Positions 31,591 through 36,760 of a stretch of DNA of 44,859 nucleotides are shown one piece after another; position 1 is the first letter of the stretch; every line of letters begins with the position of its first letter. The notes below the pieces were generated by a model, which was not told the origin of the DNA, ran no database searches, and worked only from the letters and a program-made list of their open reading frames with translations. Location: positions 1 to 44,859 of the forward strand of contig JAPPNE010000089.1 in NCBI GenBank assembly GCA_028818775.1, written 5' to 3'. The DNA is from Deltaproteobacteria bacterium. Lineage in GTDB: Bacteria; Desulfobacterota; Binatia; UBA9968; JAJDTQ01. Position numbers and translations under genes: made by a program.

Positions 31591-32514
31591 GTGAACGCCC
31601 GTCTCGGACTGGTGCACGCCGTGCTGCTGGCCACGGCGGACCTCAGCACCACGGTACCGGCGCACCATCCATCGGCCCGCAACCTCGGCACCGAGCGCAT
31701 GGGCTCGGGAACCGTCGTCGATCCGGCCGGCATCATCCTCACCGTCAACTATGTCGTCAACGGCGCCGACTCCATCACGGTGACGCTCGCGGACGGGAAG
31801 CAATACCCCGGACAGCTCATGGCCCAGGACTTCGACTCCGGCATCGCCCTGGTCAAGATCGACGCCAACGACCTGCCCTTCCTGCGCCCGGCGGAAACCG
31901 TGACCGTGGGGCAGCCGGCCTTCATGATCGCCAGCAGCGGACAGCACAACCGGCGCGTCAGCGACGGCAACGTGACCTCGCTGGAAGGCTACGACGGCCA
32001 GTGGGAGTACATGCTGGAGAAGTCCATCCGCGTGAGCGCCTTCAATCCGGGCTTCGGCGGCGGCACGCTGGCGGACACCCGCGGGCGGCTGCTGGGAGTC
32101 GTGTCGCTGAACCTCAACGATATCGGAAAGTTCACCATGGCCATCCCGGTGGAGTACTACCTCCGGGACGCGGACGAGCTGCGCAACTTCGGACGGGTGC
32201 GGAGCCGCCCAGCGCGCCCCTGGCTGGGCCTCTACTCACAGGCCATGGGCGGCCACGTGCTGATCACGGGCGTGACCCCGTCGGGACCCGCGGAGAAGGC
32301 GGGGCTCAAACAGGGCGACATCATCCTCGCGGTGGAGCGGCAGGAGGTACAGACCCGGCCCCAGCTCTACCGGGAGGTGTGGAAGAAGCAGGCCGGCGAC
32401 GTCATTACCTTCCGCGTGATCCGGGGCGACGGCGCCATGGACGTTCAGGTCCCCAGCATCGATCGCTGGGACCGAAACCGCAACAATCCGCCGGAGGGCC
32501 AGGCCGGCGCCTGA
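31591..32514 (+). CDS. HtrA/DegP-like protein with PDZ domain, catalytic triad lost
   Basis: 307 residues from a GTG with GGAG upstream. The trypsin-like HtrA fold (about 35-190) is followed by one PDZ domain (about 200-295: RPWLGLY, VTPSGPAEKAGLKQGDIILAVE). All three catalytic positions are changed. The TNxHVV motif reads TVNYVVNG (Tyr54 for His), the TDLAL motif reads SGIALVK (Gly84 for Asp), and the GNSGGPL motif reads GFGGGTL (Gly156 for Ser). The protein should therefore bind peptides through its PDZ but not cleave. The N-terminus is only weakly hydrophobic, so export is doubtful. It is divergent from yceD and 51 bases ahead of a thioesterase gene on the same strand. Function unknown. 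Confidence 0.85.
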   Translation: MNARLGLVHAVLLATADLSTTVPAHHPSARNLGTERMGSGTVVDPAGIILTVNYVVNGADSITVTLADGKQYPGQLMAQDFDSGIALVKIDANDLPFLRPAETVTVGQPAFMIASSGQHNRRVSDGNVTSLEGYDGQWEYMLEKSIRVSAFNPGFGGGTLADTRGRLLGVVSLNLNDIGKFTMAIPVEYYLRDADELRNFGRVRSRPARPWLGLYSQAMGGHVLITGVTPSGPAEKAGLKQGDIILAVERQEVQTRPQLYREVWKKQAGDVITFRVIRGDGAMDVQVPSIDRWDRNRNNPPEGQAGA

Positions 32515-32997: not shown

Positions 32998-34329
32998 TCA
33001 GCGTGCCGGCTCCGCCGCGGCATGGACGCCGGCGCCGGTCTCGAGTCCGGGGACGCCGTAGGTGTCCGCGACGCGCCGCAAGAGCGCGATATTGTCGGCG
33101 TGGCCCGTCATCCGCGCGCGCACCCGGCCGCGAATGGGGCGGCCCATGAGCGAGAAGTCGCCGACGATGTCCAGTATCTTGTGCCGCGCGAACTCATCCT
33201 CGAAGCGCAGGGAGGTGTTGATCACGCGCTCGTCGTCGACGAGGATGCAGTTGCCGAGGCGGCCGCCCTTGATCAAGCCCAGCCGTTCGAGCTTCTCGAA
33301 ATCGCGCAGGAAGCCGAAGGTCCGCGCCGGCGCGATCTCGTCCCGAAACGACTCCGCCCCCCGGTGGATGTAGGTGTATTCCTGACTGCCCACGGGACTC
33401 GGGTAGCGCAGGCGGTAGTGCACCGTGAAGACGTCGGCCGGTTCGATGACGATCTCCTCCGGCCCGTCCCCGCTCACGCTCAGGGTCCGGTCGATGACGA
33501 TCTCCGGGCACGTCCCCTCCTGCTCTTCCACCCCGGCCTCCTCGATCAGGCGGCAGAACTCGATGGCCGAGCCGTCCATGATGGGAATCTCACCGTACAT
33601 CTTGATCAGCAGGTTGGTGATGCCGTAGGCGTGCAGGGCCGCCATCAGGTGCTCCACGGTGCCCACCACCACGCCGCCGCGGCGCAACGACGTGGCAAAA
33701 TCGGTGGAGCGCACGCAGTCCAGATGGGCCGGGACCGTGGCATCGCCGGAGATGCCGCCGAAGTGAATGCCGCTGTTCTCCGGCAGCGGGTGCAGGATGA
33801 CGCCGGTGCTGACCCCCGAATGCAGGCCCAGGCCGTTGGCCACGACGCTCTTCCGGAGAGTTTTTTGGCGCACCGCGCCATCGGCGGAAACGGCGCTGGA
33901 CCACGGCGCCGCCTGGTGCAGCCGCAACTGCTGCTCCGCCGCCGGACCCTCGCGCCGCGCGTCGCCGCAGGCGCGCTTGATGGTCGCCAGCAGCCCGTCG
34001 AGAGAGAGCGGCTTCTCGATGAAGTCGAAGGCGCCCAGCTTGGTGGCGGTCACCGCCGTGTGGATGCTCCCGTGGCCCGAGATCATGATGACGCGGGCGT
34101 CCGGATGCGCACTCTTGATCTGCTTGAGCAGCACGATGCCATCCATCTCGGGCATCCAGATGTCCAGCAGGATTACGTCCGGCGCCTCCTGCGTCACAAG
34201 CCGCAGCACCTCGGACCCCTCGGTCGCCGCGATCACACGGTAACCCTCGTCGGCGAGGATCTCGCGTACGGTATCGCGGATGACGTCCTCATCGTCCACC
34301 ACCAGCACCGTTCGTTGCGCTGCCTGCAT
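32998..34329 (-). CDS. lpxC: Fusion of NtrX-like receiver domain and LpxC deacetylase
   Basis: 443 residues from the ATG at 34329, which has GGAGGA about 10 bases upstream. Residues 6-120 are a full receiver domain: acidic pair Asp12-Asp13, phospho-acceptor Asp56 (LLDIWMP), Ser84 (ISGHGS) and Lys106 (EKPLS); its sequence is of NtrX type. After a roughly 30-residue linker, LpxC starts near 153 (RQKTLRKSVVANGLGLHSG). Zinc ligands His227 (TVEHLMAA), His383 and Asp387 (RHKILDIVGD), catalytic Glu226 and His410 (TGHADN) are present. Gly359 (GGRLGNCIL) replaces the Asp/Glu normally found there. LpxC deacetylates UDP-3-O-acyl-GlcNAc, the committed lipid A step. An NtrY-like kinase is encoded 59 bases upstream, so phosphorylation-controlled LPS synthesis is the natural inference. 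Confidence 0.95.
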   Translation of the reverse strand: MQAAQRTVLVVDDEDVIRDTVREILADEGYRVIAATEGSEVLRLVTQEAPDVILLDIWMPEMDGIVLLKQIKSAHPDARVIMISGHGSIHTAVTATKLGAFDFIEKPLSLDGLLATIKRACGDARREGPAAEQQLRLHQAAPWSSAVSADGAVRQKTLRKSVVANGLGLHSGVSTGVILHPLPENSGIHFGGISGDATVPAHLDCVRSTDFATSLRRGGVVVGTVEHLMAALHAYGITNLLIKMYGEIPIMDGSAIEFCRLIEEAGVEEQEGTCPEIVIDRTLSVSGDGPEEIVIEPADVFTVHYRLRYPSPVGSQEYTYIHRGAESFRDEIAPARTFGFLRDFEKLERLGLIKGGRLGNCILVDDERVINTSLRFEDEFARHKILDIVGDFSLMGRPIRGRVRARMTGHADNIALLRRVADTYGVPGLETGAGVHAAAEPAR

Positions 34330-34388
34330 CGTCTCTGAATCCTCCACTTGAAACGCCGCGCGGTTTCCCCGCCTTCCGCGGTCCCGCG

Positions 34389-36635
34389 TCAGGACGCCTC
34401 GCTCGTTCGGACGTCGAGCGGCTCGGCCTGCGCGGCCGCGGGCAACTCGATGATGAAGCGCGTGCCGCGGGGCTGGTTCTGGCGCACGCGAATATATCCC
34501 CGGTGGTCGGCCACGATGGTGCCGACGATGGAAAGCCCCAGTCCGGTGCCGTCCTCCTTGGTCGAATAGTACGGCTCGAAGATCCGCCCCCGGTCCTCCC
34601 GGGCGATGCCCTCGCCCTCGTCCGCCACCTCCAGCCGCACCATGCCGAAGGCTTCGTCGTAGCGCGTGGCGATCTCGATGCGTCCGCCGCCGTTCAGGGA
34701 CGCCACCGCATTGTCCAGCAGGTTGAACAACGCGCGCTTGATCTGCTCGCGGTCCAGCTCCACCAGCGGAACGGAATCCTGCTCCGAGAAATCGAACTCG
34801 ACTTCCCGGTGACCTTCCTTGACAAGGAACAGCGCTTCCCGCACCACGTCGTTCAAGTCATCGGGGGCAAGCTTCGCCGTGGGCAGCCGCGCGAAGTTCG
34901 AGAACTCGTTCACCAGCGTCTTGAGCTCCTCCACCTGCCGGATGATGGTGGACGTACACTTGTCGAGCACGGCGCCGTCACCGTCCAGGACGTTCTCGTA
35001 GCGCTTGCGCAGGCGCTGCGCCGAGAGCTGGATCGGCGTCAGAGGGTTCTTGATCTCGTGGGCGATGCGGCGCGCCACCTCGCGCCACGCCTCCACCCGC
35101 TGCACGCTCTGGATCTCGGTGAGGTTCTCGATGAAGACCATGATGCCGAGCGTGTTGCCGTCGTCGTCCCGGAGGCTGGCGGCCGCGGTCATGAGAGTCA
35201 GGGGTCCGTCGCGGCCCACGATGCGTATATCGCGTTCCACGCCGGCGCTGCCCTTGACCTGTTGGATGACGTCGAGCAACGGCCACAGGTTCGGGGCCTG
35301 AAGCGCCTCCTCGTAAGGCCGGCGGAGCACGTCCTCGGCCGCGATGTCCAGCATCAGCTCCGCGGCCTTGTTGACGATGGTCACCTTTCCGGACCGGTCC
35401 ACCGAGATCACACCGGCGGTGATGTTGGCGAGCAGCGTCTCCATGTATTGCCGGCGCTGATCCAGTTCGGACTGGGTGTGCTTGAGGTCCTCGGTCATCT
35501 GGTTGAACGAAGACACCAGGGTGCCGATCTCGTCGTCGCCGCCGCTCTCGATACGGTAGTCCAGGTTGCCGTGGGCCACTTCGTGCGTGCCCTCGGCCAA
35601 CTGCTGGATCGGCACCGTGATCCCCTTGGCCAGCGCAAAGCCGAACCACGAGGCCGCGAAGATCATGACCAGCGTGATGAGCAGCAGCGTCAGCATGTAC
35701 GCGTTCTTCACCGGCTTGTTGAGGATGGCCATGTGCTTGTACTCTTCGTACGACCGCGAGATCGCCTGCGCCTTCTTGCTGACGCTCGCGGGCACGAAGT
35801 AGTCCACCACCACCGCGCCGATGATCCGGCGGCCCTCGCCGTAGACCGGCACCGCGCCGCGCAGCACGTCGCCGTCGCCCAGCCCCTCGCTGCGCGTCAC
35901 CTCGAGGCCGCGCAACGCGCTGTCGAGAAAATCCGCCCGGGGCCGCACCGTCACTCCGGTGGGCACCTGGTCGTTGAACGCCTTCACCAGGGCCGTCCCG
36001 TCCGGCTTGTAGACCTCCACCGTGCCGAGGTTGTATTCCCGCTGCTTCTCCTCCACCAGGCGCTTCAGACCGTCGAGGTTCTTCGACTCGAAGAGCTTCA
36101 CGTCGCCGATGCGGTGGCTGAGCTGGCGCGCGAAGAAAAGCGCGTTGTCGGCGGAGTTCTGGTAGTAGGTGGAGCTGATGTCGAGGGAGCCCCTGAGCGC
36201 GTTGACCACCTGGGCGTCGAACCATTTGTCCACCGACCGGGTCACCAGGCTTCCGGCGGTCAGGAACAGCAGCACGGTGGGCACCAGCGAGAGGCCGATG
36301 AAAGCGAACACCAGGCGGGCCTGGAGGCGGGAGCCCAGGATGCGCCGGCGCCTGTCCAGCACCAGCTTCAGGAGGTTCCGCACCACCAGGAACACCAGCA
36401 GCGCCAGCAGGATGATGTTGAGGTTGACCAGCAGGAAGAACGCGATGTTGCTGACGAGGGTGTAGTCCGCGGAAACGTCCGGAAGGATATCCTCGAAGAA
36501 CGCGAACAGGAGGATCAACAGGGAACTGATGAGGATCAGCCACCCTTCGCGCCGGCGCCGCCTGCGTTCCGCGGATTGCAGCGCCCGCGCGTGCTCTTCC
36601 TCGGCCTTGGCTGTGCTGCTCATTGGAGCGGCCAT
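34389..36635 (-). CDS. ntrY: NtrY-like membrane sensor histidine kinase
   Basis: 748 residues from the ATG at 36635 with GGAGGA seven bases upstream. Four membrane spans are seen at about 32-52, 59-89, 108-130 and 312-334, with a periplasmic sensor region between spans three and four. A HAMP domain (335-386), a PAS domain (394-504), the dimerisation helix with phospho-His526 (RRIAHEIKNPLTPIQ) and a complete ATPase domain (N-box Asn642, DEGEGI near 672, GTGLGL near 696) follow. This is the layout of NtrY, whose usual partner NtrX is a sigma-54 activator. Here the next gene carries an NtrX-like receiver on LpxC instead. The signal it senses is unknown. The basic N-terminus (SAERRRRRRE) is cytoplasmic. 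Confidence 0.95.
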   Translation of the reverse strand: MAAPMSSTAKAEEEHARALQSAERRRRRREGWLILISSLLILLFAFFEDILPDVSADYTLVSNIAFFLLVNLNIILLALLVFLVVRNLLKLVLDRRRRILGSRLQARLVFAFIGLSLVPTVLLFLTAGSLVTRSVDKWFDAQVVNALRGSLDISSTYYQNSADNALFFARQLSHRIGDVKLFESKNLDGLKRLVEEKQREYNLGTVEVYKPDGTALVKAFNDQVPTGVTVRPRADFLDSALRGLEVTRSEGLGDGDVLRGAVPVYGEGRRIIGAVVVDYFVPASVSKKAQAISRSYEEYKHMAILNKPVKNAYMLTLLLITLVMIFAASWFGFALAKGITVPIQQLAEGTHEVAHGNLDYRIESGGDDEIGTLVSSFNQMTEDLKHTQSELDQRRQYMETLLANITAGVISVDRSGKVTIVNKAAELMLDIAAEDVLRRPYEEALQAPNLWPLLDVIQQVKGSAGVERDIRIVGRDGPLTLMTAAASLRDDDGNTLGIMVFIENLTEIQSVQRVEAWREVARRIAHEIKNPLTPIQLSAQRLRKRYENVLDGDGAVLDKCTSTIIRQVEELKTLVNEFSNFARLPTAKLAPDDLNDVVREALFLVKEGHREVEFDFSEQDSVPLVELDREQIKRALFNLLDNAVASLNGGGRIEIATRYDEAFGMVRLEVADEGEGIAREDRGRIFEPYYSTKEDGTGLGLSIVGTIVADHRGYIRVRQNQPRGTRFIIELPAAAQAEPLDVRTSEAS

Positions 36636-36760
36636 ACCGGCTTCCTCCGGCACGGAATACGAATGCACGGAATCACACTAACGTTTCCACCGGCAAAGCA
36701 CAAAGGAAATGACCGTCCTGGAAAGACCCGGCTCGTGAGGGGAAGCGCCTCGCGCGACGC

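Follow-up and report, generated by a model that had tools for sequence, protein, structure and literature searches.

An NtrY-like kinase paired with a receiver-LpxC fusion in Binatia: a candidate two-component control of lipid A synthesis

The 44,859-nucleotide contig analysed here (the window; contig JAPPNE010000089.1, class Binatia) carries on its minus strand a gene that joins a response-regulator receiver domain (REC) to the lipid A deacetylase LpxC, directly downstream of a gene for an NtrY-like histidine kinase. Judged from sequence and conservation, REC-LpxC is probably a response regulator with LpxC as its output, whose receiver would be phosphorylated by the upstream NtrY at Asp56 (D62 in the longer numbering given below), tuning LpxC directly. 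LpxC is the best-characterised control point of lipopolysaccharide (LPS) synthesis and a drug target. If this reading holds, a receiver fused to LpxC is a further mode of control that ties NtrY to the envelope in a single molecule and sets outer-membrane production directly by a two-component signal, and the signal sensed by NtrY becomes testable with an enzymatic read-out.

The fusion gene occupies 32998..34329 on the minus strand and encodes 443 residues from the ATG at 34329. Its frame (32998-34347) is open from a GTG at 34347, which would give 449 residues; the ATG is most likely the start, as in the database copy P0001 (443 residues). In the 449-residue numbering, used from here on, Pfam places Response_reg (PF00072, 110.6 bits) at residues 14-123 and, in the same frame, LpxC at residues 161-426 (275.6 bits against a cut-off of 27; profile positions 1-266 of 268). 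The receiver domain was delimited to residues 14-128 (33964..34308, minus strand), followed by a linker of residues 129-158 (33874..33963, minus strand) and the LpxC catalytic domain of residues 159-428 (33064..33873, minus strand). The acidic pair, phospho-acceptor Asp, Thr/Ser position and Lys of response regulators are all present as D18, D19, D62, S90 and K112, which are Asp12, Asp13, Asp56, Ser84 and Lys106 when counted from the ATG. Pfam found no sigma-54 AAA domain and no Fis-type helix-turn-helix (HTH) in the window fusion, only REC and LpxC, and since the canonical NtrX proteins L026 and L056 each carry both, the fusion protein is not an NtrX. The first-pass annotation, which had described an intact receiver and a full-length LpxC in one gene lacking the AAA and DNA-binding parts, was correct on both counts.

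The kinase gene lies at 34389..36635 on the minus strand, in a frame that spans 34389-36668 with its ATG at 36635. NtrY_N, HAMP, PAS, HisKA and HATPase_c are all over the Pfam cut-off, NtrY_N barely so (28 bits versus 23.2), and the phospho-accepting histidine is H536 in the 759-residue numbering from the GTG at 36668. The kinase stop codon is separated from the ATG of the fusion by 59 bp (34330..34388, minus strand), the distance reported in the first-pass annotation, and a GGAGG sits 11 bases before that ATG. This is the single NtrY found in the window genome (1651 bits; next kinase, 113).

The fusion recurs throughout the class. We searched 58 Binatia genomes from 33 genera and 13 families, including the window genome, which is a draft of 189 contigs and 97.5% complete. 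All 58 contain an LpxC match, and in 56 the match aligns over both REC and LpxC; in the other two (G023 and G034) the fusion copy is cut at a contig end. The whole-genome LpxC search of the window genome returned one match, the window fusion, and no second stand-alone lpxC; LpxB is present. One additional stand-alone lpxC was found among the 58 genomes, on a 3.1-kb contig of G028, and it is possibly a contaminant. Among the database matches listed for the fusion (7871 fell under the E-value limit), 120 of 120, the window's own protein included, carry both Pfam domains, a pair already visible as Pfam annotation in the database. The readable names among these matches and those of the L016 query described below are LpxC, except for one hypothetical protein (P0181) and one NtrX (P0238). 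A DNA search of plasmids gave no match. That assembly or annotation joined two separate genes could be suspected of a window that is one contig of a draft genome, but 56 of 58 class genomes and 120 of 120 listed database proteins share the architecture, which makes this explanation practically negligible, and assembly error was rejected. The earlier reading had named a second stand-alone lpxC and loss of the fusion in close relatives, along with such an error, as findings that would undo it; the nearly complete window genome yielded no second copy, and every relative in which both domains are readable has the fusion.

Eleven further genomes with the fusion were reached through individual loci; ten have one LpxC and the eleventh, G059, has two. 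G059 (a 2.07-Mb genome labelled Syntrophobacterales) encodes its two REC-LpxC proteins at L154 1563-2987 and L010 7941-9377, and each gene is preceded by a similar open reading frame (ORF) that looks coiled-coil-like by eye.

Linkage to the kinase is equally regular in the class sample. In 55 of the 58 genomes the gene immediately upstream, in the same orientation and 5-413 bp away, encodes NtrY. In G008 the last 97 residues of NtrY stand at the edge of the fusion contig, and in G009 and G034 the locus is truncated by a contig end. The pairing of NtrY with REC-LpxC first proposed for the window is maintained throughout the class sample. All 97 of the 97 NtrY-type kinases compared, of which 40 come from fusion loci, have H536 and N540.

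Residue conservation was read from 170 fused sequences (44 direct-fusion loci, six AAA-type loci and 120 proteins; 16 duplicate loci were removed beforehand, and some of the proteins may be the same as loci). All 170 have D18, D19, D62 and K112, and position 90 is Ser in 167 and Cys in three. The ratio of nonsynonymous to synonymous substitution rates (dN/dS), obtained for six of eight congeners, ranged from 0.035 to 0.127 in REC, from 0.115 to 0.202 in LpxC and from 0.41 to 0.71 in the linker, with REC below LpxC in six of six comparisons. By this measure, REC is under purifying selection. Because the phospho-site residues are invariant and the dN/dS of REC is as low as that of LpxC, direct control of LpxC by phosphorylation appears likely.

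In the catalytic half, E232, H233, T343, H389, K390, D393, D397 and H416, whose zinc-binding and catalytic roles are known from E. coli LpxC, are at least 98% conserved in the 170 fused sequences and align with solved LpxC. An AlphaFold model built with 60 sequences has a mean predicted local distance difference test (pLDDT) of 83.6 and a predicted template modelling (pTM) score of 0.76, with residues 124-146 of 443 below a pLDDT of 50. All 50 of the Protein Data Bank matches listed are LpxC, with target TM scores of 0.81-0.94 and 33-41% identity. Such modest identity could suggest an LpxC domain that has changed function and is no longer a lipid A deacetylase. This is very improbable, given the retained zinc and catalytic positions, the structural matches, and a window genome in which LpxB is encoded and the fused LpxC is the only one found.

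The proposed sequence of events would begin with NtrY sensing the state of the envelope or periplasm and autophosphorylating on H536. The phosphoryl group would pass to D62 of the receiver, and the phospho-receiver would shift its alpha4-beta5-alpha5 face. Across the linker of about 30 residues, the contact of the receiver with the LpxC domain, or the pairing of protomers around it, would then change by docking or dimerisation, and flux into lipid A would follow the NtrY signal. NtrY probably also dephosphorylates the receiver, because the kinase keeps HEIKN, a motif that points to phosphatase activity. As for the sign, we lean towards phosphorylation acting to reduce LpxC output, by analogy with the alphaproteobacteria Rhodobacter and Caulobacter, in which NtrYX lowers lpxC expression (PMC7240162, PMC12444477). 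In Rhodobacter sphaeroides lacking NtrYX, lpxC mRNA rises 8.8-fold (PMC7240162) and LPS about two-fold (PMC12444477).

The regulator with which NtrY is usually paired was not found at ortholog level in the fusion genomes searched. With the canonical NtrX L026 as query, all four control genomes yielded an NtrX ortholog (57-63% identity, 556-610 bits), and the second-best regulator of a control scored 419 bits. No NtrX-level match was obtained in the 11 further fusion genomes (at most 403 bits), nor in the 58 class genomes (at most 415 bits). No more than 21 of these 58 had a match within the E-value limit of 1e-115, and for many class genomes scoring was confined to the 28 best candidates from the first look. 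A normal ntrX elsewhere in the genome, another objection raised at the outset, therefore finds no support in the window genome or its class. The window genome has eight sigma-54-activator matches, of which two, C88 and C154, have a REC by the receiver profile; two more, C46 and C161, start with a receiver-like stretch. C88 and C154 were rejected as NtrX: GAFTGA is present, their own kinases adjoin them, and their receivers score 75 and 68 bits, whereas NtrX receivers beside ntrY score at least 127 bits on that profile.

Two arrangements found beyond the window bear on how the fusion arose. In six loci (L014-L019; five labelled Nitrospinota or members thereof, one Nitrospirae), a single ORF contains REC, a sigma-54-type AAA domain and LpxC. 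The Walker B DE and GAFTGA patterns fail in all six, and L018 also lacks Walker A; among stand-alone NtrX-type rows, Walker B is present in 55 of 57 and GAFTGA or GSFTGA in 44 of 57. A database query with L016 gave 119 of 120 proteins with REC, AAA and LpxC among the matches listed (5238 passed), the remaining one being partial. The form without AAA comprises the class sample plus L009, L010, L012 and L013. In the second arrangement, found in other deltaproteobacteria, the genes are separate neighbours: 25 of 29 stand-alone lpxC loci have lpxC, ntrY and ntrX in that order on the same strand, a count biased by the choice of loci for their likeness to the fusion. A sample of 58 Geobacter-order genomes, which is less biased, gave 61 lpxC genes in 55 genomes. 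With frames of 338 residues at most, none of these genes is fused to REC; 17 of the 61 lie directly upstream of ntrY. Neither the REC-AAA-LpxC proteins of Nitrospinota nor the lpxC-ntrY-ntrX neighbourhood found in other bacteria could be seen from the window alone.

These sequences make it seem that NtrX, once a sigma-54 activator, became an LpxC gated by a receiver. Neighbouring lpxC and ntrX likely fused, the sigma-54 ATPase would then have decayed, and the ATPase would finally have been lost. We favour, with somewhat less assurance than the direct tuning of LpxC by NtrY, the view that the stages of this path survive, from separate lpxC-ntrY-ntrX through NtrX-LpxC with a dead sigma-54 ATPase to REC-LpxC, ending in control of LPS output without transcription and without proteolysis. 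It would be a rare readable route from a transcription factor to a signal-gated enzyme. In an LpxC tree of 81 rows (quick search, midpoint-rooted), the 50 fused rows and the contig-cut L144 fall on one side of a branch with a Shimodaira-Hasegawa-like approximate likelihood ratio (SH-aLRT) support of 100, and grouping the 50 fused LpxC together was not rejected by the approximately unbiased test (p-AU 0.511).

Several observations weigh against direct control by the neighbouring kinase and against a simple path to it. The orientation of REC relative to LpxC is unsettled in the model, in keeping with its overall pTM and the low pLDDT of the linker. GAFTGA or GSFTGA is also missing from 13 of the 57 stand-alone NtrX-type rows, so the fusions are not distinguished by the loss of this motif alone. 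The REC tree, a weak one of 118 columns and 113 rows, groups 40 fused RECs and places those of L009/L010, L012/L013 and the AAA forms among NtrX receivers. Because the fused RECs are scattered over several places, a single fusion event is not established, and they may have arisen by repeated fusion or domain swap. Moreover, the LpxC tree with midpoint rooting nests the AAA form among the AAA-less fusions, which leaves the order of events unsettled. Finally, fusions beyond the class sample often lack an adjacent kinase: among the 11 further fusion genomes NtrY adjoins the fusion in two (directly upstream at L014 and L018), lies elsewhere in seven, and in two, G059 and G060, no clear full-length NtrY was found. 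At the unlinked NtrY loci, no receiver follows within 3-4 kb downstream of L107 and L109-L111, and L108, L112 and L113 are at contig ends; in G068 the kinase may in fact adjoin the fusion across a contig break. Nine of the 19 fusion loci of the first locus set show no kinase within the stretch of sequence covered, two of them (L012 and L039) near a contig end.

This looser linkage is what would be expected if the receiver were a relic that aids only folding or dimerisation while the kinase signals to another regulator. G059, with two REC-LpxC genes and only an N-terminal NtrY fragment (L114 1884-2492), points the same way; in this genome a different kinase, or no kinase at all, may act on the receiver. 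We regard a relic as improbable for the fusions in general: its phospho-site would hardly stay invariant across all 170 sequences, its dN/dS falls below that of LpxC in every comparison, and no NtrX-level match remains as an alternative partner for the kinase.

An unlikely but more serious alternative to tuning of catalysis is that the receiver leaves it unchanged and that phosphorylation instead determines where LpxC is located or how long it lasts, for example through tethering to the membrane kinase NtrY or through exposure to a protease. The low-confidence, fast-evolving linker and the continued adjacency of kinase and fusion in the class are compatible with it, as is the regulation of LpxC elsewhere: the E. 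coli enzyme is set by its stability, and a Neisseria LapB homolog has been suggested to position LpxC at the membrane (both in PMC12444477). On the other side, the C-terminal FtsH degron of E. coli LpxC, LAXXXXXAVLA (PMC12444477), occurs in none of the 119 readable C-terminal tails of P0001-P0120, the matches listed; 69 of these 119 tails have 13 residues after GHxxN. Because FtsH control is described there as largely restricted to Enterobacteriaceae (PMC12444477), absence of the degron alone is not special. The behaviour of enzyme-fused receivers in general also speaks for tuning of catalysis: such receivers, those of CheB and the diguanylate cyclase regulators for instance, commonly work through allostery or dimerisation.

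Response regulators with enzymatic output include CheB and the PleD and phosphodiesterase types. These regulators resemble REC-LpxC in linking REC to a catalytic domain and in pairing with a histidine kinase, but their known outputs act on signalling molecules or signalling proteins, whereas REC-LpxC has the enzyme of a committed biosynthetic step as its output. LpxC-FabZ is a known LpxC gene fusion too, although it joins two pathway enzymes and has no signalling domain. In NtrY-NtrX systems an NtrY-type kinase likewise stands beside an NtrX-type receiver; there, however, NtrX is a transcription factor whose control of lpxC was judged indirect, whereas the fusion has neither AAA nor HTH and LpxC itself is the output. 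LpxC control is known by proteolysis in E. coli, MurA binding in Pseudomonas and transcription in alphaproteobacteria (PMC12444477). The E. coli and Pseudomonas enzymes share the domain, active-site residues and fold of the fused LpxC; the former is degraded by FtsH/LapB via its C-terminal degron and the latter activated by MurA (PMC12444477), in contrast to an N-terminal receiver with no such degron. No description of a receiver-LpxC protein was found in the literature searched, judged on titles and abstract openings and with most subscription journals outside coverage, which agrees with the first-pass statement that no characterised example was known. The words receiver, fused and response regulator are absent from the 2025 review (PMC12444477).

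Further observations concern the lpxC genes of other bacteria and the surroundings of the fusion. In the Geobacter order, a high-scoring lpxC subtype (354-375 bits) lies directly upstream of ntrY in 17 of 18 cases and the other subtype in 0 of 43; two lpxC genes occur in six of the 58 genomes (G085, G086, G091, G097, G105 and G111). In the REC-AAA-LpxC protein of L019 (6597-8828), AAA and LpxC are separated by additional sequence that resembles a remnant Fis-type HTH and has no Pfam call. Two Omnitrophota LpxC frames, L031 4187-5509 (441 residues) and L032 5319-6680 (454 residues), are of a length that would fit an LpxC-FabZ fusion. Further upstream on the kinase strand of the window, Pfam identifies RuvB, RuvA and YebC, and the ORF between RuvA and YebC would be RuvC by position. 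Downstream of the fusion, on the opposite strand, are a Trypsin_2-PDZ protein and a 4HBT thioesterase (Pfam); the former, HtrA-like and encoded at 31591-32514 on the plus strand, adjoins the LpxC fusion gene and faces it.

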